Part shown: piece after piece, positions 1-15,553 of the stretch
How positions within the stretch are numbered: the stretch's first letter is position 1
Layout of the letters: each line of letters starts with the position of its first letter
From: a bacterium
GTDB lineage: Bacteria > Elusimicrobiota > Elusimicrobia > UBA1565 > UBA9628
NCBI GenBank assembly: GCA_021822495.1
Contig: JAKAQO010000014.1
Coordinates: forward strand, 1 to 15,553
Length of the DNA: 15,553 nucleotides
Reading direction: 5' to 3'
The notes under the pieces: generated by a model
Databases searched by the model: none
What the model saw: only the letters and a program-made list of their open reading frames with translations
Told to the model about the DNA's origin: nothing
Translations under genes and position numbers: made by a program

Positions 1-124
1 CCAAACCCTTCTTCGATAAATAGTGGGTAATCGCCGCCGTCAAGGTCGTCTTACCATGGTCCACGTGGCCAATCGTCCCGATGTTCACGTGAGGCTTCGT
101 CCGATCAAATTTCGCTTTTGACAT
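1..124 (-). CDS. tuf: Elongation factor Tu, 5' part (cut by window edge)
   Basis: The first 41 codons of EF-Tu, the GTPase that delivers aminoacyl-tRNA to the ribosomal A site, are present. The translation begins [19 protein letters not shown] and contains the P-loop GHVDHGKTT that binds guanine-nucleotide phosphates; the rest lies outside the window. The start at 124 is supported by a GGAG ribosome binding site eight bases upstream. The gene is the last of the str-type cluster (rpsL-rpsG-fusA-tuf), but here it is separated from fusA by two accessory genes. Its leader and first eight codons are duplicated at 1848-1893, where they form the start of the first accessory gene. The identification is certain although only about a tenth of the protein is visible. 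Confidence 0.98.
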
Positions 125-144
125 TTTACTTTCTCCTTTTTTTA
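100..144. repeat. Direct repeat copy 1: tuf leader and first codons
   Basis: This 45-bp copy of a direct repeat covers, on the minus strand, a TAA triplet, the A-rich leader with GGAG ribosome binding site, the tuf ATG and codons 1-8 plus one base. The partner at 1848-1893 has one substitution (GGAG to GCAG) and one extra A before the ATG. The TAA at its upstream edge is not a gene end here but aligns with the fusA stop codon in the other copy, so it looks like a fossil of the original fusA-tuf junction. Confidence 0.95.
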
Positions 145-169
145 AGCGTCGTTATATTCTACTGAAAAT

Positions 170-727
170 TTAGGCCGCTTTGTGACTCATTTTCTGGCCT
201 GCCCGCTCATACCAATAATTTTCAAGGGCTTCTTTAATTCGAGGGTTATCAAACTTGTCTCCATTTTCCATCTTGAACTCAAGATAAGCGACAATGGCCT
301 GGCATTCCTTCTGGTTGAAAATGGAGAATTTGTAGAGGGCGGCATCCCACCAAGTGCGCTCTCCATAACGTTTGGGATTAATCCTCTCATTTTTCGAATC
401 TGCGCTCAATCCATGGGTGAGATAGTAGACAGGATCAGTTTCTTTCAATTTAGAGTCAATATCCGCGATTAGATAGGCTTGCAGATAAAAATGAAATGCC
501 TCAGCGGAAAAAAAACTCAAAGCTGAAGCGAATCCATTGGGAGCCGAGTCCAAAAAGTGAGGTTCAAGGGACTCCCATTCTTTTTTCCCCTTAAAGGCTT
601 CTTTAAGCAAAACAGGTTCTTCTCCTTCGTTGCTTCCACTTAAGCACCAGTCGCCTGGATATTCGACCCCGGAAAAGGCCAACTTAACAGTTGTTTTTAG
701 CTGTTCCTTGGTCTTTGTTGCCATCAT
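170..727 (-). CDS. DUF6714-like protein, candidate immunity protein
   Basis: A soluble protein of 185 residues with no signal peptide or membrane segment. Visible landmarks are VEYPGD (21-26), an aromatic helical stretch with SAEAFHFYLQAYL (74-86), YYLTHG (101-106), and FNQKECQAIVAYLEF (138-152). From memory these match the layout of DUF6714 proteins (YPGD, then AFxFYLPAYL, then a Q-rich helix before a YLE-type motif). The start is taken as the ATG at 727, which overlaps the stop of the upstream gene as ATGA; a second ATG at 724 overlaps it as TGATG, so translation is coupled either way. A GGAT lies seven bases before the first ATG. A longer reading from a GTG at 781 only re-reads the upstream gene's C-terminus in another frame. 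Lying directly behind a toxin-like gene and lacking an export signal, it would fit a cytoplasmic immunity protein; that role is inference. It is followed by tuf 45 bases downstream. Confidence 0.8.
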   Translation of the reverse strand: MMATKTKEQLKTTVKLAFSGVEYPGDWCLSGSNEGEEPVLLKEAFKGKKEWESLEPHFLDSAPNGFASALSFFSAEAFHFYLQAYLIADIDSKLKETDPVYYLTHGLSADSKNERINPKRYGERTWWDAALYKFSIFNQKECQAIVAYLEFKMENGDKFDNPRIKEALENYWYERAGQKMSHKAA

Positions 728-1872
728 TTGGAATATCCAGCGGCGCCAACGTTGCATTCTCTTGAAATCCTGTTCATACACTTTTGCGCGGCCCTGCGAG
801 CTTGATTGGCCGCTTGGCGATGACCTTCATTTCCGCCTCGATAACAGGTATTATTTATTTCATCACGAGCCGCCGCGCATCGGTTATTTAAATCTAGGCG
901 CGTCCTTAAATCGTCGCAAGTAAGTTCTTGTGGGGTGCATTTTCTGTCCGCCCCACATATTTCATCAACCGCATTCTGAAGCCTTCGATGCTGTTCCGGA
1001 GAACAATCGCCGATATCGGCTTGGATGAACGTAGCTTTGACTTCCTCAACCCACGAGTCCATATCGTCCATCCAGGATTTAAGCGTCGAAATCCACTGAG
1101 AAGCGGAAGACTTAATATTATCTGCGCGCGAGTTAAAGTCATTGACCTTGGCATTGTATTGGGAAATATCGCTTTGGAGCTGCGAAATCTGGGAATCTAA
1201 ACTTTGGCGCTCGGACTCACACTCCTCATAGGGTCCCTGCGGCAAGGTCTTGCCCGCGCAAGATTCATTGTAGGAATCAATTGCGCTCTGAAGCGCACTT
1301 TGGCGATTATCCAAATCGGCGTTCTCCGAATCCAAATTTTGGTTCTCGGAAGAAAGCGCGTCATTTTCAGAATCCAAATCCGGCGCTTGATCGGTCAGTT
1401 GATCGTGAGTTTGAACGAGCGCGTCCCAATGCGTATTAAGCGGTTCAAGAGCCTGAGCGGAAAGATTTTGGTAATCTTGGGATTGCCTGATATTACTCGC
1501 GGCTTGATACATCGCTCCGGTTTGATTCATGGCGGCCGCCAAGGAACCTTGATAGACATAGCCCAAAGCGCTAAACCGCGTTTGCTCATTTTTTGAGAGT
1601 TTCCTTAAAATTTCTTTGGGCAATTTCGGAAGGATGAATTTCTTGGCGTGGATAACAGGCAGGAATTGAACGCGGATCGGGCTTAAACTTTTCCTCGTTT
1701 GACCCAGCATCTTATGGAACTCCTTCGATATTTTTTGCCCCCAACCATCGGATGAGGCAAGAGCGGGACGAGAAACCATCAAGAAAAGCGCGCCTAGAAA
1801 AATGACCGGAACCGCGCGCGCAATCATTTTAATGACGCGCGAACTCCTCCGATCAAATTTCGCTTTTGACAT
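724..1872 (-). CDS. Exported coiled-coil, Cys-rich toxin-like protein with EF-Tu-derived N-terminus
   Basis: A 382-residue protein, not a known member of the str operon. Residues 1-8 (MSKAKFDR) are identical to EF-Tu and encoded by identical codons. A basic n-region, a hydrophobic segment (about 19-34) and ALA|SS at 37-41 form a Sec signal peptide. Residues 164-199 are perfect heptads with Leu at 166, 173, 180, 187 and 194 and SEN repeated at 168, 175 and 182; a second 4-3 hydrophobic pattern runs from 225 to 250. The C-terminus (290-373) has eight Cys and motifs AARDEINNTCYRGG and GHRQA, which resemble, from memory, the Ntox16-type toxin domains at the ends of RHS and other polymorphic toxins. 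It follows fusA by 18 bases. A classical signal peptide would also start at Met16 (1827), preceded by GGAGGAG at 1844-1850, so an older start there is likely. Toxin activity is inference; an exported structural protein is the alternative. Confidence 0.85.
   Translation of the reverse strand: MSKAKFDRRSSRVIKMIARAVPVIFLGALFLMVSRPALASSDGWGQKISKEFHKMLGQTRKSLSPIRVQFLPVIHAKKFILPKLPKEILRKLSKNEQTRFSALGYVYQGSLAAAMNQTGAMYQAASNIRQSQDYQNLSAQALEPLNTHWDALVQTHDQLTDQAPDLDSENDALSSENQNLDSENADLDNRQSALQSAIDSYNESCAGKTLPQGPYEECESERQSLDSQISQLQSDISQYNAKVNDFNSRADNIKSSASQWISTLKSWMDDMDSWVEEVKATFIQADIGDCSPEQHRRLQNAVDEICGADRKCTPQELTCDDLRTRLDLNNRCAAARDEINNTCYRGGNEGHRQAANQARRAAQKCMNRISRECNVGAAGYSK
1844..1850 (-). promoter_or_regulatory. 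Internal Shine-Dalgarno-like site, possible older start
   Basis: On the minus strand a GGAGGAG lies inside codons 8-10 of the toxin-like gene, 16 bases before the ATG of Met16. Met16 would give a short, ordinary signal peptide (MIARAVPVIFLGALF onward, cleaved after ALA). This suggests that the gene once started there with its own ribosome binding site and was later joined in frame to the tuf start. The 16-base spacing is longer than the optimum, so present use is uncertain. Confidence 0.4.
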
Positions 1873-1893
1873 TTTTACTTTCTGCTTTTTTTA
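1848..1893. repeat. Direct repeat copy 2: tuf-like leader at fusA end
   Basis: This 46-bp copy matches 100-144 except for one extra A before the ATG and a G-to-C change that turns the GGAG ribosome binding site into GCAG. It starts on the fusA stop codon TAA and ends after eight codons shared with tuf. Identity stops abruptly on both sides, marking the likely joint between the original fusA-tuf junction and the inserted cassette. Confidence 0.95.
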
Positions 1894-3990
1894 TCTCTGG
1901 GTCGCCATGGCGGCGGCATTTTTCTCAACAATCGCTTTATACACGTTGGACGGCACTTCTTCATAATGACTGGGCTCCATGGTAAATGAAGCGCGGCCTT
2001 GAGAAATTGAGCGCACGACCGTCGCATATCCAAACATTTCGGCCAAGGGCACCGTCGCGCGGACAAATTTCAAGTGTCCACGGTCTCCCATGTCTTGAAT
2101 CTTGGCGCGGCGGCTGTTGAGGTCTCCGATGACGTCTCCCATGTATTGCTCGGGAGTCACCACCTCAAATTTCATCACGGGTTCCAAAATCGTTGGACTC
2201 GCCTTTTTACAACCCGAACGCAACGCCATCGCGCCCGCGATCTTAAAAGCCATTTCGGAAGAGTCTACTTCATGAAATGATCCGTCCATCAAGGTCACCT
2301 TGATATCGACGATTGGGTATCCCGCCAAGGCTCCGCCGTCCAAGGCTTCGCGAACGCCTTTTTCAACGGCCGGAATAAATTCCCGCGGAATACGACCCTG
2401 TTTAATTTCATTAACAAATTCAAAACCCTGGCCCATCGGTTGCGGCTCGATTTGAATAATGCAATGACCATATTGCCCGCGACCGCCGGACTGACGAATA
2501 AACTTTCCCTCTTCGACAAGTTTTTTGCGAACCGTCTCTTTATAAGCGACCTGGGGATTACCGACATTGGCTTGAACATTGAACTCGCGTTTCATGCGGT
2601 CAACAATAATGTCCAAATGAAGCTCTCCCATTCCGGAGATAATGGTTTGTCCGGTCTCGGTGTCGGTGCGCAAGCGGAAGGTCTGATCTTCTTCCGCCAA
2701 GCGGCCCAGGGCCATCGACATTTTTTCCTCATCCGCCTTTGATTTAGGCTCAATGGCCACTGAAATGACCGGTTCAGGGAAGGTAATCTGTTCCAAAATG
2801 ATCGGGTCCTTCTCGGAAGATAAAGTAACTCCGACCTGTGAGTTTTTCATCGCGACCGTGGCCGCAATATCGCCGGCAAAAACCTGCTTAATTTCTTCTC
2901 TTTGATTGGCGTGCATGCGGAGAATACGTCCGATTCTTTCGCTGCTTTTCTTGTTGGCGAAATAAATCGTGTCACCAACGCTCAAGGTTCCGGAATAAAC
3001 GCGGAAGAAGGCGAGTTTTCCCACATAAGGGTCCGACTGAATTTTAAACATCAATGCGGAAAAAGGTTCCGCATCCGAAGCCTTGCGTTCCGCGGGTTCT
3101 CCGGTATCCGCATTGGTTCCCTTGACGGGCGGCAGATCAACCGGAGAAGGAAGAAAATCGCACACCGCATCCAACATCGGTTGGACTCCCTTGTTCTTAT
3201 AAGAAGATCCGCACAGAATTGGAAAAATCTTGGATTTCAAAACGCCGGTGCGCAAGGTCTTGCGAAGTTCAACGGGAGTGAAATTATGCTCGCCGTTGAG
3301 ATAGCGTTCCATCATCGCATCGTCAAACTCGACGATTTTTTCGACCATCTTCTCATGGTATTCCTGAGCCTGGGATTTCATTTCATCGGGAATCTCAAGG
3401 ACTTCCCATTTGGCGCCCAGTTCTTCTCCAAGCCAAACAAGAGCCTTCATCTCGATTAAATCAATGAGCCCTTTAAAATCGGCCTCGGCTCCAATGGGGA
3501 GCTGAATCGGACAGGCATTGGCCCCGAGCATTTTTTCAATTGAGTGATACGACATATAAAAATCCGCGCCCAAGCGATCCATTTTATTGATATAGGCGAT
3601 GCGAGGCACATGGTATTTATCGGCTTGGCGCCATACGGTTTCAGACTGTGGTTCGACTCCTTGAACTCCATCAAAACAGACAACGGCTCCATCTAAAACG
3701 CGAAGAGATCTTTCCACTTCGGCGGTAAAATCCACGTGTCCTGGAGTGTCGATAATATTAATCTGGCAATCGCGCCATTTGCAGTAAGTCGCGGCGGCGG
3801 TAATGGTGATGCCACGCTCTCTTTCCTGCGGCATCCAGTCGGTCGTAGTCGCGCCGTCATGGACTTCTCCAATTTTATGAATGCGGCCGGTATAATAAAG
3901 AATGCGCTCGGTCGTCGTGGTCTTTCCGGCGTCGATGTGAGCGATAATTCCGATATTGCGAACTTTTTCGAGTGGAAATTCTCTGGGCAT
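1891..3990 (-). CDS. fusA: Elongation factor G
   Basis: EF-G is the translational GTPase that drives tRNA-mRNA translocation and, with ribosome recycling factor, splits ribosomes. At 699 residues it has normal family length. The G domain shows the P-loop AHIDAGKTT (17-25), the switch I region ending RGITI (59-63), DTPGH (81-85) with the catalytic His85, and NKMD (135-138); domains II-V follow, ending in the usual [18 protein letters not shown] segment. The ATG at 3990 has GAGG 12 bases upstream and lies 16 bases after the NYN gene stop. The gene normally follows rpsG directly and precedes tuf; here both junctions are interrupted. Its TAA stop is the first triplet of the repeat shared with the tuf leader. 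No truncation or missing motif is seen. Confidence 0.99.
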
Positions 3991-4006
3991 AATTTAAGTT
4001 CCTCTA

Positions 4007-4582
4007 TTACGCAATGTAGATAACTGTTCCCTCGGAGACCTTGTCATCTCCAATATCGTCTCGTTTGTCTTGGAAGGTGATACGAGGAAAAGATTGATCC
4101 AAATCGATGAATTTAGCCCCTGAGAGATTTTTTAGCTTTGAGGCCGCATTGCTCCAAAAATAAATTTCGACATCCCACCCTTTCTGCACGCAACGCTCCA
4201 TCGTAGAAAGATAGTCCAAATCCCCCGCCACCAAAGCAATAACTCCTTTTTCCGGACTATCCTCCATTACATCCCTAATCGCGTTAATAAGTTCCGCGTC
4301 AACGCCTTTTTCCCTCCCCGTAAACTGACTGCGATCAAAGATGCGGGGCTGAAGCCCTAAACTCTTAAGTTTATTCCAAAGCGTATCCTGCTTCGGAGGG
4401 CGCGAGCCTACCAGGACAGCCGTCCCCATCTCGCGTTCTGATTTAATCAAATCCAGCAATCGACCATACTCAATCCTGAAGCAATGCAATTGATCGACAT
4501 CGTAGACGTAATCAATTTTAGCGACCCTCTTGCCCTCGATAAAAAGGTTCGAGTTATCGACAAAGACGTGAACTTTTTTCAC
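4007..4582 (-). CDS. NYN-domain (LabA/DUF88-like) predicted ribonuclease
   Basis: A 191-residue cytoplasmic protein with the NYN fold, a PIN-like, metal-dependent nuclease domain. Visible family landmarks are the opening strand HVFVDNSNL with Asp9 and Asn10, EKGVDAELINAIRD with Asp95, and LVAGDLDYL with Asp121 and Asp123 followed by GWDVEIYFW; these acidic residues are the expected metal ligands. The domain fills residues 1 to about 165, and a short acidic tail follows. It starts with GTG at 4582, one base after the rpsG TAG stop, with a weak GGTGG before it, and ends 16 bases before fusA, so it is almost certainly cotranscribed and translationally coupled with S7 and EF-G. NYN proteins in general process or degrade RNA; a role in ribosome-linked RNA cleavage is inferred from context only, and no specific substrate can be named. 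Confidence 0.9.
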   Translation of the reverse strand: MKKVHVFVDNSNLFIEGKRVAKIDYVYDVDQLHCFRIEYGRLLDLIKSEREMGTAVLVGSRPPKQDTLWNKLKSLGLQPRIFDRSQFTGREKGVDAELINAIRDVMEDSPEKGVIALVAGDLDYLSTMERCVQKGWDVEIYFWSNAASKLKNLSGAKFIDLDQSFPRITFQDKRDDIGDDKVSEGTVIYIA

Positions 4583-4583
4583 T

Positions 4584-5063
4584 CTACCACCGGTAATGGG
4601 CGAAGGCGCGGTTGGCCTCGGCCATCTTATGAGTATCTTCGCGTTTTTTAAACGCCGTTCCTTCTTTTTTATGCGCGGAAATTAGTTCATCCGCTAAGCG
4701 CTCAGCCATGGGCTTTCCGGATTTGCTCTCGGCGGCATCAATCAGCCAGCGCATGGCAATGGTCGTTGAACGAGCCGGAGAAACCTCTATCGGAACTTGA
4801 TAGGTCGCTCCGCCCACGCGGCGGGCCTTGACTTCCAAGAGAGGGCGAATATTTTCAATCGCCCCGTTGAGAAAGTTGAGAGGGTCTTGCTGGGTCTTTT
4901 CTTTCACGATATCCATCGCGCCGTAAAGAACCTTCTGGGCCGCGAGTTTCTTTCCCATGAAATTAATTTTATTAATGAAGCGCGAAACTAAAACGCTCCC
5001 ATATTTATAGTCCGGAAGCGGCGCCGGCCTTCTATCTCTTGGTCTCAATCCTTTTCTTGGCAT
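4584..5063 (-). CDS. rpsG: 30S ribosomal protein S7
   Basis: S7 binds the 3' major domain of 16S rRNA, starts assembly of the 30S head and contacts the E-site tRNA. The 159-residue product has normal length, the basic start [12 protein letters not shown], the FINK and [10 protein letters not shown] helices, the beta-hairpin region [16 protein letters not shown], and the typical ending [15 protein letters not shown]. The ATG at 5063 has GAGG about 14 bases upstream, a longer spacing than usual, but no other start fits the family. It lies 27 bases after rpsL. In other bacteria S7 is the translational repressor of the str operon; the intervening region here is too short to judge whether that control is kept. 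Confidence 0.98.
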
Positions 5064-5090
5064 ACGCGATATTTCAACCTCTTTTTATTT

Positions 5091-5477
5091 TTAAGCTTTA
5101 GCGACAGCTTTCGGCCGTTTGGCGCCGTAAATGGAACGCCCTTGTTTGCGACCTTCGACTCCGGCGGTGTCCAAAACTCCGCGGATAATATGATAGCGAA
5201 CTCCAGGCAAATCTTTTACGCGGCCTCCGCGAATGAGCACAATGGAGTGTTCTTGAAGATTATGCCCCACTCCCGGAATATAGGCCGTGACCTCAGTCCC
5301 CGTTGTGAGCTTCACGCGGGCAATTTTCCGCAAAGCCGAGTTCGGTTTTTTGGGCGTCGTGGTAGACACGCGAGTGCAAACCCCCCTCCGTTGCGGACAA
5401 GAGCGAAGAGCTGGGGCTTTTGAACGCGACTTTTGGCTATGTCTTCCGTATCTGATAAGCTGGTTAATCGTGGGCAT
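5091..5477 (-). CDS. rpsL: 30S ribosomal protein S12
   Basis: S12 sits at the decoding centre of the small subunit and helps monitor codon-anticodon pairing. The 128-residue product begins [13 protein letters not shown] and contains the family cores [13 protein letters not shown] (39-51), [11 protein letters not shown] and [11 protein letters not shown]. The two Lys of PKKPNS and the Lys of RVKDLPG, whose substitutions give streptomycin resistance elsewhere, are the wild-type residues. The start at 5477 is chosen because it gives the conserved MPTINQ beginning and has AAGGA nine to ten bases upstream. An in-frame ATG at 5495 would add six non-conserved residues and overlap rpoC. The gene begins one base after the rpoC stop, so it is joined to the RNAP genes rather than opening a separate str operon. 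Confidence 0.98.
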
Positions 5478-5478
5478 A

Positions 5479-8400
5479 TTATTTTTCCTTCCCATTAGCG
5501 GAAGCGTTTCTCGCCGCCGCTTGTTCTAATATATTTTTTCTCACATCGAAACCGGTTCCCGCCGGAATCATGTGTCCGATAATAACGTTTTCTTTAAGTC
5601 CTTTTAAGTAGTCAACCTTGGAATTGGTCGCGGCATCGGTCAAAACGCGCGTCGTTTCTTGGAAACTCGCCGCCGAGACAAAGGAGTTCGAGGCTAAACT
5701 GGCCTTGGTGATTCCCAAGAGAACTGGCTCTCCTTGAGCTTCTTGCTTCCCCTCGTCCTTGGCTTTCTGATTGAAATCCGCGAAAGCGAAGCGATTGACA
5801 ATTTCTCCCTTGATGAACGCCGTGTCTCCGGAGCTAGTCACCTTCACGTTTTGCAACATCTGCCGAACGATGCACTCAATATGCCGGTCGGCCAGTTGAA
5901 CGCCTTGCAAGCGATACACTTCCTGAATCGCGTTGACCAAGAATTCCTGAACTTCTTTGATGCCCTTGACGCGCAAAACGTCGTGCGGGTCAATAGCGCC
6001 GTCTGTCAAGGCTTCTCCCACTCCGACGCGATCGCCCTCATAAACCATCAAATGTTTTCCCTGGGGAATCAGGTAATCCCGAACCAGATCGGTTTCCTCG
6101 TTGCGTACCGAAACCTGCACCAGGCCCTTGGGGCCGACGCCGAGACTGACGATTCCCTCGATTTCAGAAACAATCGCGCCGTTCTTGGGTTTTCGCGCCT
6201 CGAAAAGTTCGGAGACGCGCGGAAGACCGCCGGTAATGTCCTTGGATTTAGCGAATTCCTGCGGAATCTTGGCCAAAACATCTCCCGGGCGAGCCGCTTG
6301 ACCGGAGTCAACCATTAAAATAGTATCGGTCGGTAACGGATAGACGGCGAGCTCCTTGCCGTCTTTTTCAACAATCACCCGCGGATTGAGCCGCCGAGCA
6401 GATCCTTTCTCTTTCTCTGAAGTTCTCCGGGTTTCCTGGTCGATAATCTTGCGCTCAATAATTCCTGTGATTTTATTGCGCTCTTCATGGAGAGTCACGC
6501 CTTCCTTGACGTCCGCAAAGCGAAGAGTTCCTTCTTGTTCGCAAACGACCGGCATCGCGTACGGATCCCACTCGGCTACGAGCTCATTAGCCGCGACAGA
6601 GGCGCCGTCAGAGACCTTGAGACGGCTCCCGTAATGAAGCTTATATTCTTCCGGTTTCCCGTCCTTGGCGATCAAATTGACCACGCCCGCGCGGGAGACG
6701 ACCACGATTTGACCTTCTCGAGTTTTAATGGTCCGAACATTCTTAAGTTCAACCTTGCACGAATAAGTAGAAACGATTTGAGATCTCTTGGCCACGCGGG
6801 ACGCTGTTCCTCCGATATGGAAGGTTCTCAGCGTCAGCTGGGTTCCAGGTTCGCCGATGGATTGAGCCGCGATAATTCCAACCGCCTCTCCCACGTCGAC
6901 CAAACGCCCGGAACTGTTGTTGATTCCATAGCATTTCGCGCAAACGCCGTTATCAGACTCGCAGGTCAACACCGAACGAGTTCTTATATATTCGATGCCT
7001 AATGCCCGAATCTTGGAAGCGACCTCGGAGGTAATTAAATCTCCGGCTTTGCACAAAACCTTAGAATCCTTTTCGTTCTTGCCTTCCAAGGAGACAATAT
7101 CCTCTAAGGAGACCCGGCCCAAAACGCGCTCTTCCAAAGGTTCGATCACTTCATCGCCAGCGGATAAATCTCCCAAGCGAACTCCGTTTATCGTTTGGCA
7201 ATCTTCTTCGACAATCACCAAGTCATGGGCGATGTCGACTAAGCGACGGGTTAAGTACCCGGCGTCAGCGGTTTTAAGCGCAGTGTCGGCCAACCCCTTG
7301 CGGCCTCCGTGAGTGGAGATGAAATACTCAAGAACCGTCAAACCTTCTCTAAAGTTGGAGATAATCGGTTGTTCGATAATTTCACCGACGCCTCCAGTCA
7401 ACTTCTTCTGCGGTTTAGCCATCAATCCCCGCATACCGGCCAACTGGCGAACTTGTTGGCGACTTCCGCGGGCGCCGGAATCGGCCATCAAGAAGACCGA
7501 GTTAAACCTGGCTTTTTCGGGAGAATAGGTCTCGGCCTCTTCTTTTTTCATCTCATCGAACATGACGTCTGAAATTTCGTCGGTCACGTGAGTCCAAATG
7601 TCGATGATTTTATTATAGCGTTCGCTTTCGGTGATGATTCCGTCGCGACTCTGCTTCTCAATCTCGCGCACTTTCTTGCGAGCCTTCTCCACTTCTTCTT
7701 TTTTCTTTCCGGGAATATGCATATCCGAAATGGAAATCGAAAGCCCGGCCATCGTGGCGAAGCGGAAACCCAGTTGTTTAAGGTTATCCAATAGCATAGC
7801 CGTTTTATGATGACCCAAATTCTTGTAGGAATGGTCCACCAACTGGGACAATTCTTTTTTGCCCAAGGCTTTATTAATGAACCCCATCTCGGCAGGGAGA
7901 ATTTCATTAAAAATCACGCGGCCAACCGTGGTCCAGTCCTTCCAGTCGGAAGCCTTGGAATTTTTTCCTTCTTCCTCGATGATTTTATTGACGCCTTGAA
8001 CCTTGATTTTGGCGTGAAGATCGACTTTTTTATTCTGCCAAGCCGCCATGACCTCGGATTTGTCGGAGAAGATCATGCCTTCCCCGAGTTCTCCGGTCTT
8101 AAATTTTGTCAGGTAATGGATTCCCAAAACCATGTCATGAGAGGGAACCGCAATCGGCTTTCCAGAGGCGGGGGAGAGAATATTATTAGTCGCCATCATG
8201 AGAAGCCGCGCTTCCAACTGAGCCTCTTGGGACAAAGGCACGTGAACCGCCATTTGGTCGCCGTCAAAGTCGGCGTTGAAAGCCGCGCAGGTCAAGGGAT
8301 GAAGTTGAATGGATTTTCCCTCGATTAAAACCGGCTCGAAAGCCTGGATACCCAAGCGGTGAAGGGTCGGCGCGCGGTTAAGAAGCACCGGGTGTTTTTG

Positions 8401-9702
8401 GGTCACGTATTCCAAAATATCCCAGATTTCCGGCTGCACCTTGTCGAACATACGCTTAGCCGCTTTCAAGGTCAAGTTATCTTTCTTCATCAATTCGCGC
8501 AAGATAAAGGGCCGGAAAAGTTCCAAAGCCATTTCCTTGGGCAAACCGCATTGATTGAGTTTTAAATTCGGACCGACAACGATGACGGAGCGGCCAGAAT
8601 AGTCCACGCGCTTTCCGAGTAAGTTTTGACGGAAGCGACCCTGTTTCCCTTTCAGAATATCGGAAAGAGACTTTAAGGGTCGATTGCCCGCCCCGACGAC
8701 CTGGCGACCGCGCGCGCCGTTTTCAAAAAGGGAATCCACCGCTTCTTGAAGAAGACGCTTTTCGTTGAACACCATCACTTCCGGAGCTCGCAAGGATTCG
8801 ATGTGTTTAAGACGATTATTGCGATTGATGATGCGGCGATAGAGATCGTTTAAGTCGGAAGTAGCGAAACGCCCGCCGTCCAAGGGAACCAAGGGACGAA
8901 TCTCGGGCGGAATGACCGGCAAGGCCGTCAAAATCATCCACTGGGGCTCGTTTCCAGATTCAGCAAAACCCTGCAAAATACGGAGGCGGCGAATGAGGCG
9001 AGAACGCTCGGCATCCGAAGAAACTTCTTTAATTTGGGCAAGCACTCTTTCCGCTTCTTCCTTGGGCTTGACCTTAGAAAGTAGCTGGCGAATGGCCCCG
9101 GCTCCAATATCGACTTTAAAATGAGAACGATACTCCACCCTGGCTTTGCGAACTTCATCTTCGGATAATAGATCGCCGGTCTTGAAAACTTTTCGTCCAT
9201 TGGCGTCAACTAAATCTTCAAGAACAATGTAGTTCGCGTAATAGGCCACGCGCTCCAAATCGGAGGTCTTCATATCCAAGACGATTCCAACCCGGGAAGG
9301 GGTCTTTTTCAAGAACCAAACATGGGCGACCGGAACTGCAAGCTCGATGTGCCCCATGCGCTCGCGGCGGACCTTGGACTCGGTAATTTCGACTCCGCAA
9401 CGATCACAGACGATGCCGCGGAATTTAATCCAGCGATACTTTCCGCAGGCGCATTCATAATCCCGAACTGGCCCAAAGGTTTTTTCGCAGAAAAGACCGT
9501 CCCTCTCGGGTTTTAAGGTCCGATAGTTAATCGTCTCGGGTTTTTTGACTTCGCCGTAGGACCAAGACATGATCTTCTCGGGAGAGGCCAAGGACAAACG
9601 AATCGCGTCAAAATCAGAAAAATCAAAATCCACCTGCTTTTTTTTCTTCTTACCCCCCAAAGAAAGCTTTTTTTCCGCTGTCGCGCTGTAATAAGTCGTC
9701 AT
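5479..9702 (-). CDS. rpoC: RNA polymerase subunit beta prime
   Basis: Beta prime forms one side of the RNAP cleft and holds the catalytic magnesium. At 1407 residues it has full length. Visible parts in order are the zinc ribbon with Cys84, Cys86, Cys99 and Cys102; the rudder and lid region; the absolutely conserved NADFDGDQM (476-484); the secondary-channel and bridge-helix part ([13 protein letters not shown], then [21 protein letters not shown]); the second zinc site with Cys836, Cys915, Cys922 and Cys925; and the trigger-loop motif [11 protein letters not shown] (956-966). The C-terminus carries [13 protein letters not shown] and [14 protein letters not shown]. The start overlaps the rpoB stop by four bases (ATGA), implying coupled translation in equal amounts. 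The N-terminus is about a dozen residues longer than the E. coli one and holds a KKKKK tract (18-22). Nothing suggests a frameshift. Confidence 0.99.
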
Positions 9703-12700
9703 TTTTTACCCGCCTCGCTCTTTGTTCCGTTTTTAACGGCCGCTGCATTTCCGGCTTCATGACTGCCCGTTTTTAAAAGTTCGATATTGATGCCGAGCCC
9801 TTGCAATTCCTTCACCAGAACCTTAAAGGATTCAGGAATTCCCGGGCGGGCCAACGGCTCGCCTTTAATGATAGCCTCATACATCTTCGTCCTTCCTTGA
9901 ACGTCGTCGGACTTAACAGTCAAAAACTCTTGCAGGGCATACGCCGCGCCATAACCCTCGATAGCCCAGACTTCCATTTCTCCGAAACGCTGGCCTCCGA
10001 ATTGAGCTTTGCCACCCAAAGGTTGCCGGGTGATTAAGCTGTACGGTCCAATGGAACGGGCATGAATCTTATCCTCAACCAAGTGAATGAGTTTAAGGAT
10101 ATACATATATCCGACTGAAACCTTTTCCTGGAAGGCTTCCCCCGTGCGGCCGTCATACAAAGTAATGCGGCAATCATCCGCGGGAAGATATTTTTCCGGA
10201 ACCCCTTGAGAAATCAAATGCTTCTTGGCCTCGGCCACTTTCTTTTTAATTTCCGTCTCGCTGGCGCCGTCAAACACAGGATTAACCATCTGCGTTTCAA
10301 GCGTATAAGCCGCCCAACCCAACATCATCTCAAGAATTTGTCCGATGTTCATGCGGGAAGGCACGCCCAACGGAGACAAAACAACGTCAAGCGGCGTACC
10401 ATCAGGAAGATATGGCATATCTTCAATCGGAAGAATTTTGGCGATAACACCTTTATTTCCGTGGCGTCCGGCCAATTTGTCTCCGACCTGGACTTTACGG
10501 CGGGAAGCGATATAAACCTTAACGACTTTGTTGACCGTCACGGGCAAATCATCGCCCTCTTTAAGCCGCATCTTGGCTCTTTCGGCTTCGCTCCTGAGAT
10601 TATCTTCCATAATCTCGTAAAACTTATCCAAACGCTCTTTCTCTTGTTTGCGCTCGGAAGCGGATTTGCCTTCCAAAGCCTCGAAAGATTCCTTGCGGTG
10701 AGATTTAAGCGCCTCCAGATCGGAGGCCAGCTTTGTCTCAACCGCCTCAAAACGTTGTTTTTCCTCAGGCTTGGTCAACTTTTCCCGACGAACGAAAACG
10801 CGCGTGCCAATGATCTGTCCGGAAACGCCCGGGGGAACGCGCAGAGAAACGTCTTGAACATCCTCGGCTTTTTTGCCAAAGATAACTTTAAGCAAACGCT
10901 CTTCCGGAGACAATTGCTGCTCGCCCTTGGGAGCGATTTTGCCGACTAAAACGTCCCCCTGATGAACCACGGTCGAGGGAACAACAATGCCCTGCTCGTC
11001 TAAATATTCCAAAGAATCAGAACCAACGTTGGGAATATCGCGCGTAATTTCTTCGGGACCAAGTTTCGTGTCTCTCGCCTCAACTTCAAACTCAGAGATC
11101 ATAATCGAGGTGAACACGTCATCACGCACGAGTCTCTCGGAAAGAATAATGGCGTCTTCAAAATTATAGCCTTCCCAAGGGAGAAAGCCGACTAAAAGGT
11201 TGCGCCCCAAAGCTAATTGCCCGCCTGCGGTTGCCGGCCCATCAGCAAGAACGGATCCTGCTTTAACATGATCTCCCGAGAAAACCAAGGGAGTTTGGTT
11301 AATGCAGGTGTCTTGGTTTGAGCGAGAATATTTTCTCAAGCGATAAAGATCAACCAAATCCTTAGAACCTTCTGGACGATCAACGCTGACGGCGATTAAA
11401 TCTCCGGAGGAATAAATGACCTTGCCAGCGCGCTTAGCCACGATGCAGGATCCGGAATCTCGCGCCACCACTTCCTCAACCCCGGTCGTAACCAGAGGGG
11501 CTTCCGTCTTTAACAAAGGAACAGCCTGGCGTTGCATGTTAGAACCCATGAGAGCGCGGTTGGCGTCGTCATGTTCCAAGAATGGAACCAAGGCCGCGGA
11601 AACAGAAATAACCTGCATGGGAGAAATATCCATGTAGTCCACGCGAGCCGGCTCAACGACTGGAAAATCTCCGCGCGAGCGGCAAGAAACAGAATCAACA
11701 GCGATTTGATCGCCTTTCAAAGGAGTGTTGGCTTGGGCCACCACCATTCCGCTTTCCGTATCTGCGTTCAAATACTCGACGTCTCCGGTCAATTTACCCT
11801 TGACCGTCTTCCGATAGGGAGACTCAATCAATCCAAATTCATTGATGCGGGCATAGGTTGCCAAACTCATGATTAGACCGATGTTGGAACCTTCCGGAGT
11901 TTCAATTGGACAAATGCGGCCGTAATGGGTGTGATGAACGTCGCGAACCTCAAAGCCCGCGCGCTTTCGGTTAAGCCCTCCGGGGCCTAACGCAGACAGA
12001 CGACGCTTATGGGTAATCTCGGCCAATGGGTTAATTTGATCCATGAACTGAGATAATTGCGAGGCGCCAAAAAACTTGCGCAAAATACCGACTAAGGGAG
12101 CGGTGTTTAGAAGCTGCCGGGGCGTCAGATTCTCTCTTTCTTGGGAACTCATGCGATCTCGAATCACGCGGGACATTTGCGCAATTCCCATGCGAATTTG
12201 ATTTTCGAGAAGTTCTCCAACTCCTCTCACGCGACGATTGCCCAAATGATCGATGTCGTCAACGCGAATAGGGAAGTGCTGTTCCAAGAAACTTAAAACC
12301 GCGCCCTTCCACTGAGAAATGGCCTCGGAAAGCTTAATCATAGAGAACGCATCTTTCTTTAGCCCTTGATTATAATCATCTTCCGTCTCATCCAATTCCT
12401 TTTCATGCAGATGGAGAACGGCGACCTCATCCAACGATTCCCCACTCTTTTTCTTGCTGTAATCTTGAATTTTTTTCTTAAAATCAGCCAGCTCCATCGC
12501 GGAACCCACGCCGCGCACAGGAACGGAGGTAAATTGCGCCTCTCCATCCACCAAATGGGTCACCCCGTTATTAAGGGCAATGATATACTGCATGGCCGCG
12601 ATGAGGTCTTCCAAACAGAGGGTACGGCGATCAAACGCAGGAAGAGCTAAACCTTTATGTTTGCGGCTGTTGGGTCTGACGACGACGTCCTTGCGAGCGG

Positions 12701-13784
12701 CCAAGTTCCAAAGGAAGGGGTAAAGCTTGGAATTGATTTTGTGGCGGCCTACCTTGCTGAGATCATATTTGCGAAGATTTCGCATGAAGAGATTGTCGAT
12801 ATAAACTTCGGCCTGTCCGGGGATAATAAATTCCTGTCCGCGCAGTTTCTTATAAATGTCTTGCTGAGCTTCCCGGGTCGTATGAATCTTGTCTTTTCGC
12901 AGAGTTTCCAGAATAGTCGCGTCGTCTTTTTCCGGATCCCCGCTTAAAACCTTAAGAGATTTGATTCCTTTTTCCTTGACGCGGTGAAGCGCTTCATTGG
13001 TAATCTTTTTTCCAGCTTCAAGCAAAAGCTCGCCGGAAGATTCATCCACCACATCCTCAACCATAATCCGATGTAAAAGAGACGCTCCCCCATCTTCCGC
13101 CGACAAGGGAAGTTCTTCGTAGGGATAAAAGATTTTTAAAATATCGGAATCGGACTCAATCCCGCAAGCTCGCAAGAAGGTCGTCGCCTCGAATTTTTTC
13201 TTTCTGTCAACGCGGACATAAAGGATGTTGTTGATGTCAAATTCAAATTCAACCCAAGCTCCGCGATAAGGAATAATGCGGGCGAAAAATAGTTTCTTGC
13301 CGTAGGAAGAAATCTTTTTCTCTTCATCTTCCTCAAAAATAATTCCTGGCGAACGGTGCAACTGGCTGACCACGACCCGTTCCGCCCCATTGACAATGAA
13401 GGAGGCCGTATCGGTCATCAGGGGAATTTCACAGAGAACCACTTCTTGCTCAACGATTTGTTTGAGTTTTCCAGAGGGTTGCCGTGAAGAAAGGCGCAAA
13501 ATAGCTTTTAGAGGGCGCGACCAGGTCGCGTCATGAGCTCTCGCTTCTTCGGGAGAGAGATATCGCGGCTCGCCGAAATCATAACGCACAAAATCCAAAA
13601 CCATCCCACGATCGGAGGATTCAATCGGAAAAACATCGAGAAACGCGGCCTGAAGCCCCATAATCTCGCGTTCATCCGGTTTTTTATTTAACTGCATAAA
13701 ATCAACGAATGATTTTTTTTGCATCTCCAAGAGATCTGGAATGGGCATGAGCTGGGGGATCTGGCCAAAATTTATTTGTTTCAT
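9699..13784 (-). CDS. rpoB: RNA polymerase subunit beta
   Basis: Beta forms the other side of the RNAP cleft and binds rifampicin. From the ATG at 13784 the product has 1361 residues. Landmarks include [35 protein letters not shown] (about 509-524), the rifampicin region [13 protein letters not shown] (571-583) with sensitive-type Asp582, His592 and Ser597, the [13 protein letters not shown] motif, [27 protein letters not shown], and the C-terminal clamp segment [18 protein letters not shown]. The start is chosen because GAGGG lies five bases before it; an upstream in-frame ATG at 13796 overlaps that site. About 100 residues (roughly 407-507) separate the YIIALNNG helix from [10 protein letters not shown], where E. 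coli has only a few, so this looks like a lineage insertion. A charged coiled-coil insertion also precedes the [16 protein letters not shown] motif. The gene lies downstream of an intrinsic attenuator and overlaps rpoC. Confidence 0.99.
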
Positions 13785-13820
13785 TTTTTCCCTCATTATT
13801 GGAGATTTAATTTTTCAATG

Positions 13821-13861
13821 TAAAAAAAAGACAAAGAGACCCCTACCTTGATAGGGGTCTC
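13821..13861 (-). terminator. Intrinsic terminator/attenuator between rplL and rpoB
   Basis: On the minus strand a perfect 10-bp stem (GAGACCCCTA and TAGGGGTCTC, loop TCAAGG, 13836-13861) is followed by TTTGTCTTTTTTTT. It lies 52 bases after the rplL stop and 37 before the rpoB start, so transcription must partly pass it for rpoBC to be made. Partial termination between rplL and rpoB is known in E. coli and keeps RNAP subunits below L7/L12 output; the same use here is inferred. An AGAGAC just upstream (13872-13877) could pair with the 3' arm, but by only six bases. Confidence 0.9.
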
Positions 13862-13912
13862 GGATGACTGAGTCTCTAACGAAAAACTTCAAACGCAAGC
13901 TCTCGCGAAAAA

Positions 13913-14320
13913 TTAGCGAAGTTCAATCACGGCCCCAGATTCCATGAGTTTCTTTTTCATGTCTTCCGCTTGGGCTTTGGGCACTCCGTCTTTAACGGCT
14001 TTAGGAGCGGCTTCAACAAGATCTTTCGCTTCTTTAAGTCCAAGGCCGGTTAATTCACGGACAACTTTAATGACCTGAATTTTCTTGTCTCCGGCGCTGG
14101 TCATGAAAACGGTGAAATCCGTTTTTTCCTCGGAGGCGGCGCCACCGGCAGCCGGGGCTCCACCCGCGGCGGGAGCGGCCATCATCATCGGAGCGGCTGC
14201 AGCGGCCTTAACTCCGAACTTTTCCTCAACGGCCTTAACCAACTCGGAAAGCTCCAAAACGGAAAGGTTCCCGATCACATCCACAATTTCTTCTTTCGAC
14301 ATCTTTGTCGCTGTCGCCAT
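13913..14320 (-). CDS. rplL: 50S ribosomal protein L7/L12
   Basis: L7/L12 forms the multi-copy, mobile stalk of the large subunit that recruits and activates translational GTPases such as EF-G and EF-Tu, both encoded downstream. From the ATG at 14320 the protein has 135 residues: an N-terminal dimerisation helix pair (about 7-36), an Ala/Met/Pro/Gly hinge (39-62) and a C-terminal domain (67-135) with [17 protein letters not shown], the factor-binding surface, and the end [10 protein letters not shown]. This start has GGAG six bases upstream; an in-frame ATG at 14332 overlaps that site and is rejected. The intergenic distance to rplJ is 81 bases. Slightly more residues precede the first helix than in E. 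coli (MATATK). Confidence 0.98.
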
Positions 14321-14342
14321 TTTATTCTCCATTCAAGGCAGC

Positions 14343-14381
14343 TTTGCAAAAGCAAATTTATCCCGCCAATCCCAAGGGATT
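14343..14381 (-). other. Small hairpins in the rplJ-rplL spacer
   Basis: Two short inverted repeats lie in the 81-base spacer. AATCC-CTTG-GGATT (14368-14381) has five pairs plus possible wobble pairs and a CUUG tetraloop. TTTGC-TTTT-GCAAA (14343-14356) can also refold as GCTTT-TGC-AAAGC. Neither is followed by a U-tract. They might affect mRNA stability and the L12:L10 ratio, but the evidence is only the pairing itself. Confidence 0.3.
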
Positions 14382-14401
14382 AACCGGACTGCCAGCCGTT
14401 A

Positions 14402-14947
14402 TTAAGCCGCGGCCCCGGCTTGTTTTTTCTTCTCTTCCAAGGCCGCCAAGATCAAAGCAAAATCTCTCATCGGAGCTTGCAGAACCGAGGGGACTTGAGA
14501 AATCAGACCATGCAAAGTTCCCGCGAGTTGAGAGAGAAGCTCAGGCTTGGACATCAAGTTGGAAAGCTTCACGCAATCTTGAGGATTCAGCCATTTACTC
14601 TCGACAAAACCAGCTTTAATTTTGAGATTGGGGAACTGCTTGGCAAAAGTGGTTAGAATTTTGGCGGCGGCGACAGGGTCGCTTCCCTCGCAAATCACGA
14701 CGCCAATGGGGCCTTTAAAAATTTGAGGAGCAGCGCCGTCTACGCCCGCAGCTTTAACCGCATGACGCAATAAGCTATTTTTAACGACGGCATAACGACC
14801 TTTCAGCGGACGTAACTTTCCGCGCAATTCGTCAATCTCGCCGAATTTCAGACCTTTAAAATCCGTGAAAAAAATCTGCCCGGCAACCTTAATATCAGCC
14901 CCGAGAGACTTTGATCTTTCCGTTTTTTGTTGTTTTGTTAGTTTCAT
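14402..14947 (-). CDS. rplJ: 50S ribosomal protein L10
   Basis: L10 anchors L7/L12 dimers to 23S rRNA at the base of the stalk. The 181-residue product shows the RNA-binding N-terminal domain (FFTDFKGLKFGEIDELRGKLR, with KNSLLRHAV near 57-65) and a C-terminal helix (PMRDFALILAALEEKKKQ) that binds L7/L12. The ATG at 14947 gives the normal family N-terminus, but no GGAG-like ribosome binding site lies in the 20 bases before it. In most bacteria L10 represses its own mRNA by binding a long leader with a kink-turn; here only about 45 bases separate the gene from mature 5S, too few for that leader. rplK and rplA, its usual upstream neighbours, are absent at this place. Confidence 0.97.
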   Translation of the reverse strand: MKLTKQQKTERSKSLGADIKVAGQIFFTDFKGLKFGEIDELRGKLRPLKGRYAVVKNSLLRHAVKAAGVDGAAPQIFKGPIGVVICEGSDPVAAAKILTTFAKQFPNLKIKAGFVESKWLNPQDCVKLSNLMSKPELLSQLAGTLHGLISQVPSVLQAPMRDFALILAALEEKKKQAGAAA

Positions 14948-14978
14948 TGCGAATTCGCGCAGTTCTTTAATTTTGTTC

Positions 14979-15124
14979 CAGGAGATGACGAGACCGGCAA
15001 CGACCTACTCTCCCAACGCCGAGTTGGGCGTTAGTACCATTGGCCCTGGCGGGCTTAACTGCCGTGTTCGGAATGGGAACGGGTGTGTCCCCGCCGGAAT
15101 TATCACCGGCCTCGTCATCTCCTG
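14979..15124 (-). other. 5S rRNA precursor processing stem
   Basis: Two 19-base arms, 15106-15124 and 14979-14997, are complementary over their whole length with a single G-U pair. The inner bases form the terminal helix of mature 5S; the outer 12 or so extend it into both flanks. Such stems are known as substrates for 5S maturation enzymes (RNase M5 or RNase III type); which enzyme acts here cannot be seen. Cleavage of the stem would also create the 5' end of the rplJ mRNA. Confidence 0.8.
14992..15113 (-). rRNA. rrf: 5S ribosomal RNA
   Basis: The minus strand carries the conserved 5S core CCCATTCCGAACACGG, the loop AGCCCGCCAGGGCCAATGG and the 3' part GGGAGAGTAGG. The 5' and 3' ends pair as GAGGCCGG with CCGGTCTC to form the terminal helix. 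Aligning the CCGAAC of loop C to its usual place near position 42 puts the 5' end at about 15112; both ends are accurate to a few bases. It lies some 90 bases after 23S, the normal order, but is followed directly by rplJ with no terminator between them. Confidence 0.95.
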
Positions 15125-15135
15125 CAACTAGAGAT

Positions 15136-15164
15136 ATTGTAGCAATTTTTATCGAGAAAGCCAA
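15136..15164 (-). promoter_or_regulatory. Candidate sigma70-type promoter in 23S-5S spacer
   Basis: On the minus strand TTGGCT (15159-15164) and TACAAT (15136-15141) are separated by exactly 17 bases, matching the -35 box at four of six and the -10 box at five of six positions. The start site would fall near 15129, five bases before the outer end of the 5S processing stem. It could drive 5S and rplJL-rpoBC apart from the rRNA operon promoter. The spacer is A/T-rich there, so a chance match is possible. Confidence 0.5.
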
Positions 15165-15202
15165 GCTTCACACCTCCCTTGAATGGGAGCGATAGAAGAA
15201 TA

Positions 15203-15553
15203 CGGCCAAGCCTCACGGACAATTAGTACCGCTTCGCTGAAAGCCTCGCGGCTCTTACACTTGCGGCCTATCAAACCGGTAGTCTTCCGGTGTCCTTTAG
15301 CGCCCTTGCGGGCGGGGAAACCTTATCTTGAGGCGGGTTTCACGCTTAGATGCTTTCAGCGTTTATCCCTACCGAACTCCGCTACCCGGCTATGCCCCTG
15401 GCGGGACAACCGGCATACAGGAGGTTCGTTCAACCAGGTCCTCTCGTACTATGGTCGACTCCTCTCAAGTTTCCTAACGCGCATGGTAGATAGAGACCGT
15501 ACTGTCTCACGACGTACTGAACCCAGCTCACGTACCGCTTTAATGGGCGAACA
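15203..15553 (-). rRNA. rrl: 23S ribosomal RNA, 3' part (cut by window edge)
   Basis: About 350 bases from the 3' end of 23S rRNA are present. The minus strand shows TGTTCGCCCATTAAAG at the window edge (the A-loop region), GTCGTGAGACAGT, and the sarcin-ricin loop AGTACGAGAGGACC at 15437-15450, which EF-G and EF-Tu contact. The 3' end is placed near GGTACTAATTGTCCGTGAGG, followed by CTTGGCCGTA, by likeness to the E. coli end. Resistance sites further 5' are outside the window. No tRNA lies between 23S and 5S. Confidence 0.97.

Follow-up and report, generated by a model that had tools for sequence, protein, structure and literature searches.

A candidate toxin/immunity cassette anchored on the start of tuf in an elusimicrobial genome

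Introduction

Between fusA and tuf, on the minus strand of a 15,553-nucleotide (nt) stretch of an elusimicrobial genome (contig JAKAQO010000014.1 of assembly GCA_021822495.1, positions 1 to 15,553; hereafter the window), lie two genes that make up a cassette: a candidate polymorphic toxin gene, which opens with the first codons of tuf, and a candidate immunity gene of the DUF6714 family, after which the real tuf begins. We consider it likely that this is a toxin/immunity pair whose toxin was anciently fused to the 5' end of tuf, that lives only upstream of tuf in this genus and that has been moved by homologous recombination. In what follows, G000 is the genome under study, which its relatives place in Elusimicrobia, G002, G003 and G004 are congeners, and C8, C11, C17 and the like are contigs.

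The repeat and the tuf-toxin fusion

Read on the minus strand, the tuf copy of the repeat (100-144) is TAAAAAAAGGAGAAAGTAAAATGTCAAAAGCGAAATTTGATCGGA and the other copy (1848-1893) is TAAAAAAAGCAGAAAGTAAAAATGTCAAAAGCGAAATTTGATCGGA; the two differ by one G>C substitution and one extra A, just as a preliminary description of the window had it, and stand 1748-1749 nt apart. The 23-mer running from the ATG found no match in 200 dinucleotide shuffles, and the best other ungapped match to the 45-mer within the window, shifted self-matches left out, reaches 23 of 45 positions. The repeat does flank the cassette, as had been proposed, but it is more than a border, for the left copy carries the start codon of the 382-amino-acid (aa) open reading frame (ORF) at 724-1872; the tuf start is the toxin start. 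No recombinase is found among the ORFs between the copies, in agreement with the same description. The leader TTAAAAAAAGG(A)GAAAG also precedes three starts at a second, tRNA-Thr-linked tuf locus, from which fusA is absent, and the TAA ahead of the tuf copy, once taken for a fossil of the fusA stop, is therefore the TTAAAAAAA run of this leader.

How far tuf sequence reaches into the toxin differs between species. The G004 toxin begins with tuf codons 1-16 (46 of 48 nt as in its own tuf), a hydrophobic stretch coming next; the G000 copies match tuf closely over codons 1-8 only and decay after; and G003, whose toxin suffers a 1-nt frameshift shortly past the signal peptide, is intermediate. Because the G004 toxin keeps 16 codons, codon 8 marks where similarity decays and is no breakpoint, so that the eight codons of the preliminary description hold as an exact match and fail as a boundary. 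The same fusion layout and a common body recur at both tuf loci and in three species, and the later copies therefore most likely stem from one fusion.

Candidate toxin and immunity genes

The toxin ORF runs in frame from tuf codons 1-8 into a likely signal peptide (judged by eye), a coiled coil and a C-terminal Ntox16 domain at residues 288-367 (PF15523, E 3.4e-10, 40.5 bits against a curated cut-off of 25), and its structure model has a coiled coil at 139-287 and a helical C-terminus. Of the conserved R and [DNE]xxH described for Ntox16 (PMC3482391), the window toxin has, by eye, an R and NEGH, and the first position of [DNE]xxH varies in G003 and in the G004/C11 type. The ATG of the DUF6714 gene overlaps the toxin stop (AAATGATGG); this ORF (170-727) matches PF20461 with E 1.2e-11 on 170-739, and its protein is modelled as all-helical with a pLDDT of 86. 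A PDB fold search with the immunity and toxin models gave nothing with E below 0.001, the top hits of the toxin model being coiled coils and other long helical bundles. Nothing in the plasmid and phage collections matched the toxin, and the one candidate stretch that came up among viral contigs is no relative.

Across toxin-family members a conserved N-terminal body carries differing C-termini, as is expected of polymorphic toxins, and the downstream gene switches with the C-terminus between DUF6714 and a second family; in both G000 C8 and G004 C17 its start and the toxin stop overlap. Four further genomes of the order (G039, G026, G036 and G028) likewise have a DUF6714-type gene after a toxin-family gene with an Ntox16-type end, some of these matches falling under the curated cut-off. 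Since this order of genes recurs in other genera, we regard the two as a candidate toxin/immunity pair; to judge from their sequences, the first protein would be a secreted antibacterial toxin, with DUF6714 and the second, unnamed family as candidate immunity proteins. A 2012 survey gives Ntox16 neither an immunity partner nor an occurrence in Elusimicrobia (PMC3482391), and our literature search turned up nothing about DUF6714 or about genes located between fusA and tuf.

Two variations on this theme were seen elsewhere. In G026 (L133 1010-3562) a single toxin-family gene has four consecutive DUF6714-like genes behind it, in what looks like an immunity array; two of the four were compared with Pfam. 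Stand-alone proteins made of EF-G domains III-V (276-284 aa, mutually 74% identical) are encoded downstream of toxin-family genes, directly and with a 4-nt overlap in G033:C29 (L130 4603-5433) and two genes along in G028:C128 86752-87573 (L190); they might possibly serve as EF-G decoy immunity.

Cassettes at two tuf loci

The tuf start is present five times in G000, in two tuf genes and three toxin-family starts, all of them at the two tuf loci. Beyond the two copies in the window, the remaining three lie at the tRNA-Thr - tuf locus on contig C11, so that the tuf leader is indeed found before other genes, as it had been suggested one might look for. Contig C11 also terminates 124 nt inside tuf, identical there to the window, and between its tRNA-Thr and tuf are broken cassette copies. 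One toxin start there meets a stop after 12 codons and has a remnant of the Ntox16 region, and another opens a 91-aa ORF; with them are one DUF6714 gene and, from the second immunity-like family, which has no Pfam match, one gene and a partial copy of it. The 1.75 kb of the window were correctly described as holding only two accessory genes, the toxin and DUF6714 pair, but the array at the second tuf locus lay beyond that first view. The same contig has a 14-kb island with a tyrosine integrase in tRNA-Thr (G000 C11 127474-141588; L182, L006), bordered by a 43-nt half-tRNA upstream and the intact tRNA downstream, with AAGATGGACACTATATGGACACC repeated near both ends.

At the fusA-tuf site the cassette occurs in G000 and G003, and the junction is clean in G002 and G004 and in other Elusimicrobia. 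Cassette-free junctions thus do exist in close relatives, and the earlier proposal that recombination between the repeat copies would yield a clean fusA-tuf junction is supported. The tRNA-Thr-tuf site holds cassettes in G000 and G004 and short tRNA-tuf spacers in G005, G006 and G008. All toxin-family matches in G000, G003 and G004 adjoin a tuf start or sit at a contig end within the tuf leader, and among the 44 genomes of the family extra tuf starts fused to toxins were seen only in this genus; another of the 44, G019, has three tuf-like starts. In the stretches that were read, toxin-family members of other genera have different starts and lie away from tuf.

A tree of the str operon groups the congeners as ((G000,G003),(G002,G004)), with support of 88 for G000+G003. 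The fusA-site cassette is confined to the G000/G003 pair, and the tRNA-site cassette is found in one member of each pair. On the simplest reading of these sequences, the tRNA-Thr locus would be the older site and the fusA-site cassette a gain in the G000/G003 line, though the G002/G004 line may instead have lost it. In G003 (L129 about 20-190) the leader between DUF6714 and tuf is interrupted by roughly 165 inserted bp that include a GC-rich inverted repeat. In G004 (L128 about 2850-3010) a 22-nt duplicate of the tRNA-Thr 3' end lies about 85 nt downstream and may be what an integrated element left behind when it was lost.

Probable recombination between the loci

Identity of tuf starts is 98.8% within G000 and 97.7% within G004, falling to about 88% between the two species; such higher similarity within genomes is concerted evolution, as expected from gene conversion of tuf, known in Salmonella (PMC5485169). 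The leaders are of two types, a fusA-tuf type (G002 and G004) and a tRNA-Thr type (G000 C11), the latter seen at 125-162 of the window and ahead of both tuf and toxin starts on C11. The tuf after the cassette carries the tRNA-type leader in both G000 and G003, the toxin leader of G003 is nearer the native fusA type, and that of G000 is of the tRNA type, joined at the fusA stop: a crossover within the tuf start would produce such a pattern. Comparison of the two DUF6714 genes of G000 gives 40-80% similarity for the greater part of the length but about 92-100% near the 3' end and in the leader, a conversion tract between the loci. Between the toxin bodies of G000 and G004, similarity reaches 96% in some 25-aa blocks of the coiled coil and is 24-40% in the C-terminus, and the immunity family changes where the C-terminus changes, the two having been swapped together. 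Leaders, conversion tract and the joint swap of C-terminus and immunity gene all speak for homologous recombination acting on the tuf start and the tuf body, and not for a site-specific att event.

As we picture it, a toxin gene would have been fused long ago to at least 16 codons of the tuf 5' end, giving a module that opens with a tuf start and closes at the real tuf. Such a module has tuf homology on both sides, and could therefore move without a dedicated recombinase: homologous recombination or gene conversion between the tRNA-Thr-tuf and fusA-tuf loci would insert, swap or remove it, and incoming DNA of a relative would be another recombination partner. Several observations weigh against this account. 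The genus is sampled by five genomes, all draft, in which the tuf bodies have collapsed and neither G002 nor G003 shows its second tuf locus; the leader comparisons span about 20 nt; the choice between gain and loss at the fusA site hangs on a four-taxon tree; one conversion tract goes from the fusA-site type into the tRNA-site copy, transfer not being one-way; and to the frameshifted G003 toxin must be added several broken copies in G000 and G004.

Alternative explanations

The tuf leader and first codons might instead have been kept as a strong translation start for the toxin, recombination being incidental, and codons 1-8 are in fact better preserved in G000 than codons 9-16. The translation signals, however, argue the other way. 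Every tuf start tested forms a duplex of -8.5 to -8.7 kcal/mol with the anti-Shine-Dalgarno (anti-SD) sequence; the values lie between +0.2 and -2.9 kcal/mol for the four toxin starts whose ATG is intact and whose ORF has at least 48 codons (48, 91, 382 and 386 aa; two full-length genes, the truncated 91-aa ORF and the frameshifted G003 gene). All four have lost the strong Shine-Dalgarno, whereas two dead starts, one stopping after 12 codons and one with its ATG changed to ACG, keep -8.7 and -9.1 kcal/mol. The weakening differs in kind (substitution, deletion, replacement), which suggests, from few cases, that the toxin was tuned down repeatedly. We likewise considered, and dropped, a promoter carried by the leader, since a consensus scan for promoters and terminators gave no promoter in repeat or leader. 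Retention for expression thus strikes us as unlikely; rather, recombination homology would be the main reason why the tuf start was retained, while translation of the toxin was tuned down. Nor do we give much credit to a tandem duplication of tuf in which, at each site independently, an incoming toxin gene destroyed the first copy; this is quite improbable. Toxin genes do open with tuf codons, and the original capture may have happened so, but one fusion layout and a common body are shared by both loci and three species, and no tuf-body remnant was found. The version offered in the preliminary description, a duplicated tuf cut after codon 8, fails in detail, given the 16 codons of a relative and a single old in-frame fusion to a toxin gene.

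If an integrase acting in trans had inserted the cassette site-specifically at the tuf start, with the 45-bp repeat as an att duplication, the clean occupied and empty sites would be accounted for, and a tyrosine integrase does adjoin the tRNA-Thr of the second locus. That integrase, however, is part of the separate 14-kb tRNA-Thr island with its own half-tRNA duplication; the cassette itself is without a recombinase, its repeat encodes the toxin's own start, and there is no fixed core, repeat length and leader varying between species and loci. An insertion in trans is accordingly very unlikely, and the earlier suggestion of an att-like insertion that rebuilds the 5' end of tuf finds no support, given the missing recombinase, the want of a constant core and a left leader that differs between G000 and G003. 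Least credible of all is an assembly artefact at a collapsed tuf repeat. In its favour, each of the two contigs breaks off 124 nt into tuf and the assembly lacks the tuf body, presumably because this repeat collapsed. Against it, the 124 nt of tuf shared by the two contig ends suggest that the assembly overlap exceeded the repeat in length, the fusion of the toxin is in frame, and the layout recurs in congeners that were assembled separately.

Comparison with known systems

With tuf's 5' end as their border repeat, the candidate polymorphic toxin/immunity modules work like the orphan arrays of contact-dependent inhibition (CDI) and Rhs systems without being members of them. Both have repeated modules of toxin C-terminus and immunity gene with a short conserved coding border repeat (VENN in CDI), broken copies, and joint exchange of C-terminus and immunity gene (PMC3150448). 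Here, in contrast, an unrelated essential gene supplies the border with its 5' end, leader and start codon included; CDI orphans generally lack start signals (PMC3150448), whereas these modules have those of tuf, and they lie upstream of tuf at both tuf loci. The toxin sequence has no VENN, and no two-partner secretion genes (cdiB/cdiA) are among the window ORFs. The toxin resembles Ntox16 polymorphic toxins in its helical C-terminal Ntox16, trafficking N-terminus and small downstream gene (PMC3482391), but the latter is repeatedly DUF6714 here and no partner is given there. As in Salmonella, recombination homogenises duplicate tuf genes (PMC5485169), but the homogenised stretch here appears to include the leader and upstream cassettes. 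The cassette does not resemble an integrase/att element, as no recombinase lies between the repeats and the boundaries differ between species.

More broadly, we lean, if by no great measure, towards a recombinase-free movement of modules via the start of a duplicated essential gene, in which gene conversion between tuf copies and between strains would let them insert, swap and depart cleanly while the essential gene stays intact. If this is true, a housekeeping gene would provide the homology by which toxin/immunity modules dock, in place of integrases or VENN-type repeats, and tuf gene conversion would be tied to the turnover of competition genes. Ntox16 would gain a candidate immunity family in DUF6714, and similar modules would be predicted just upstream of other duplicated essential genes.

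Genomic context

The window reads on the minus strand in the order rplJ-rplL-rpoB-rpoC-rpsL-rpsG-NYN-fusA-cassette-tuf, the ribosomal and polymerase genes being named by reading their translations, and stops 124 nt inside tuf. Between rpsG and fusA the window has a NYN-domain gene (4007-4582), of which the str-operon stretches of G002, G003, G004 and L033 showed no counterpart. Features of the cassette and its flanks are collected in Table 1.

Table 1. Features at the fusA-tuf end of the window
Feature	Position	Strand	Basis
tuf, first 41 codons; contig end inside gene	1..124	-	translation; 124 nt identical to end of contig C11
Right copy of tuf-start repeat: leader, ATG and codons up to codon 8	100..144	-	sequence comparison
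tuf leader of tRNA-Thr-locus type (GTAGAATATAACGACGCTTAAAAAAAGGAGAAAGTAAA), strong Shine-Dalgarno	125..162	-	anti-SD duplex -8.7 kcal/mol
DUF6714 gene, 185 aa, candidate immunity gene	170..727	-	PF20461 match; helical model
Candidate polymorphic toxin gene, 382 aa	724..1872	-	PF15523 match, relatives, structure model
Left copy of tuf-start repeat: toxin start codon and weakened Shine-Dalgarno (GCAG)	1848..1893	-	sequence comparison
fusA, 699 aa; stop codon is first triplet of left repeat	1891..3990	-	97-98% identical to congener fusA
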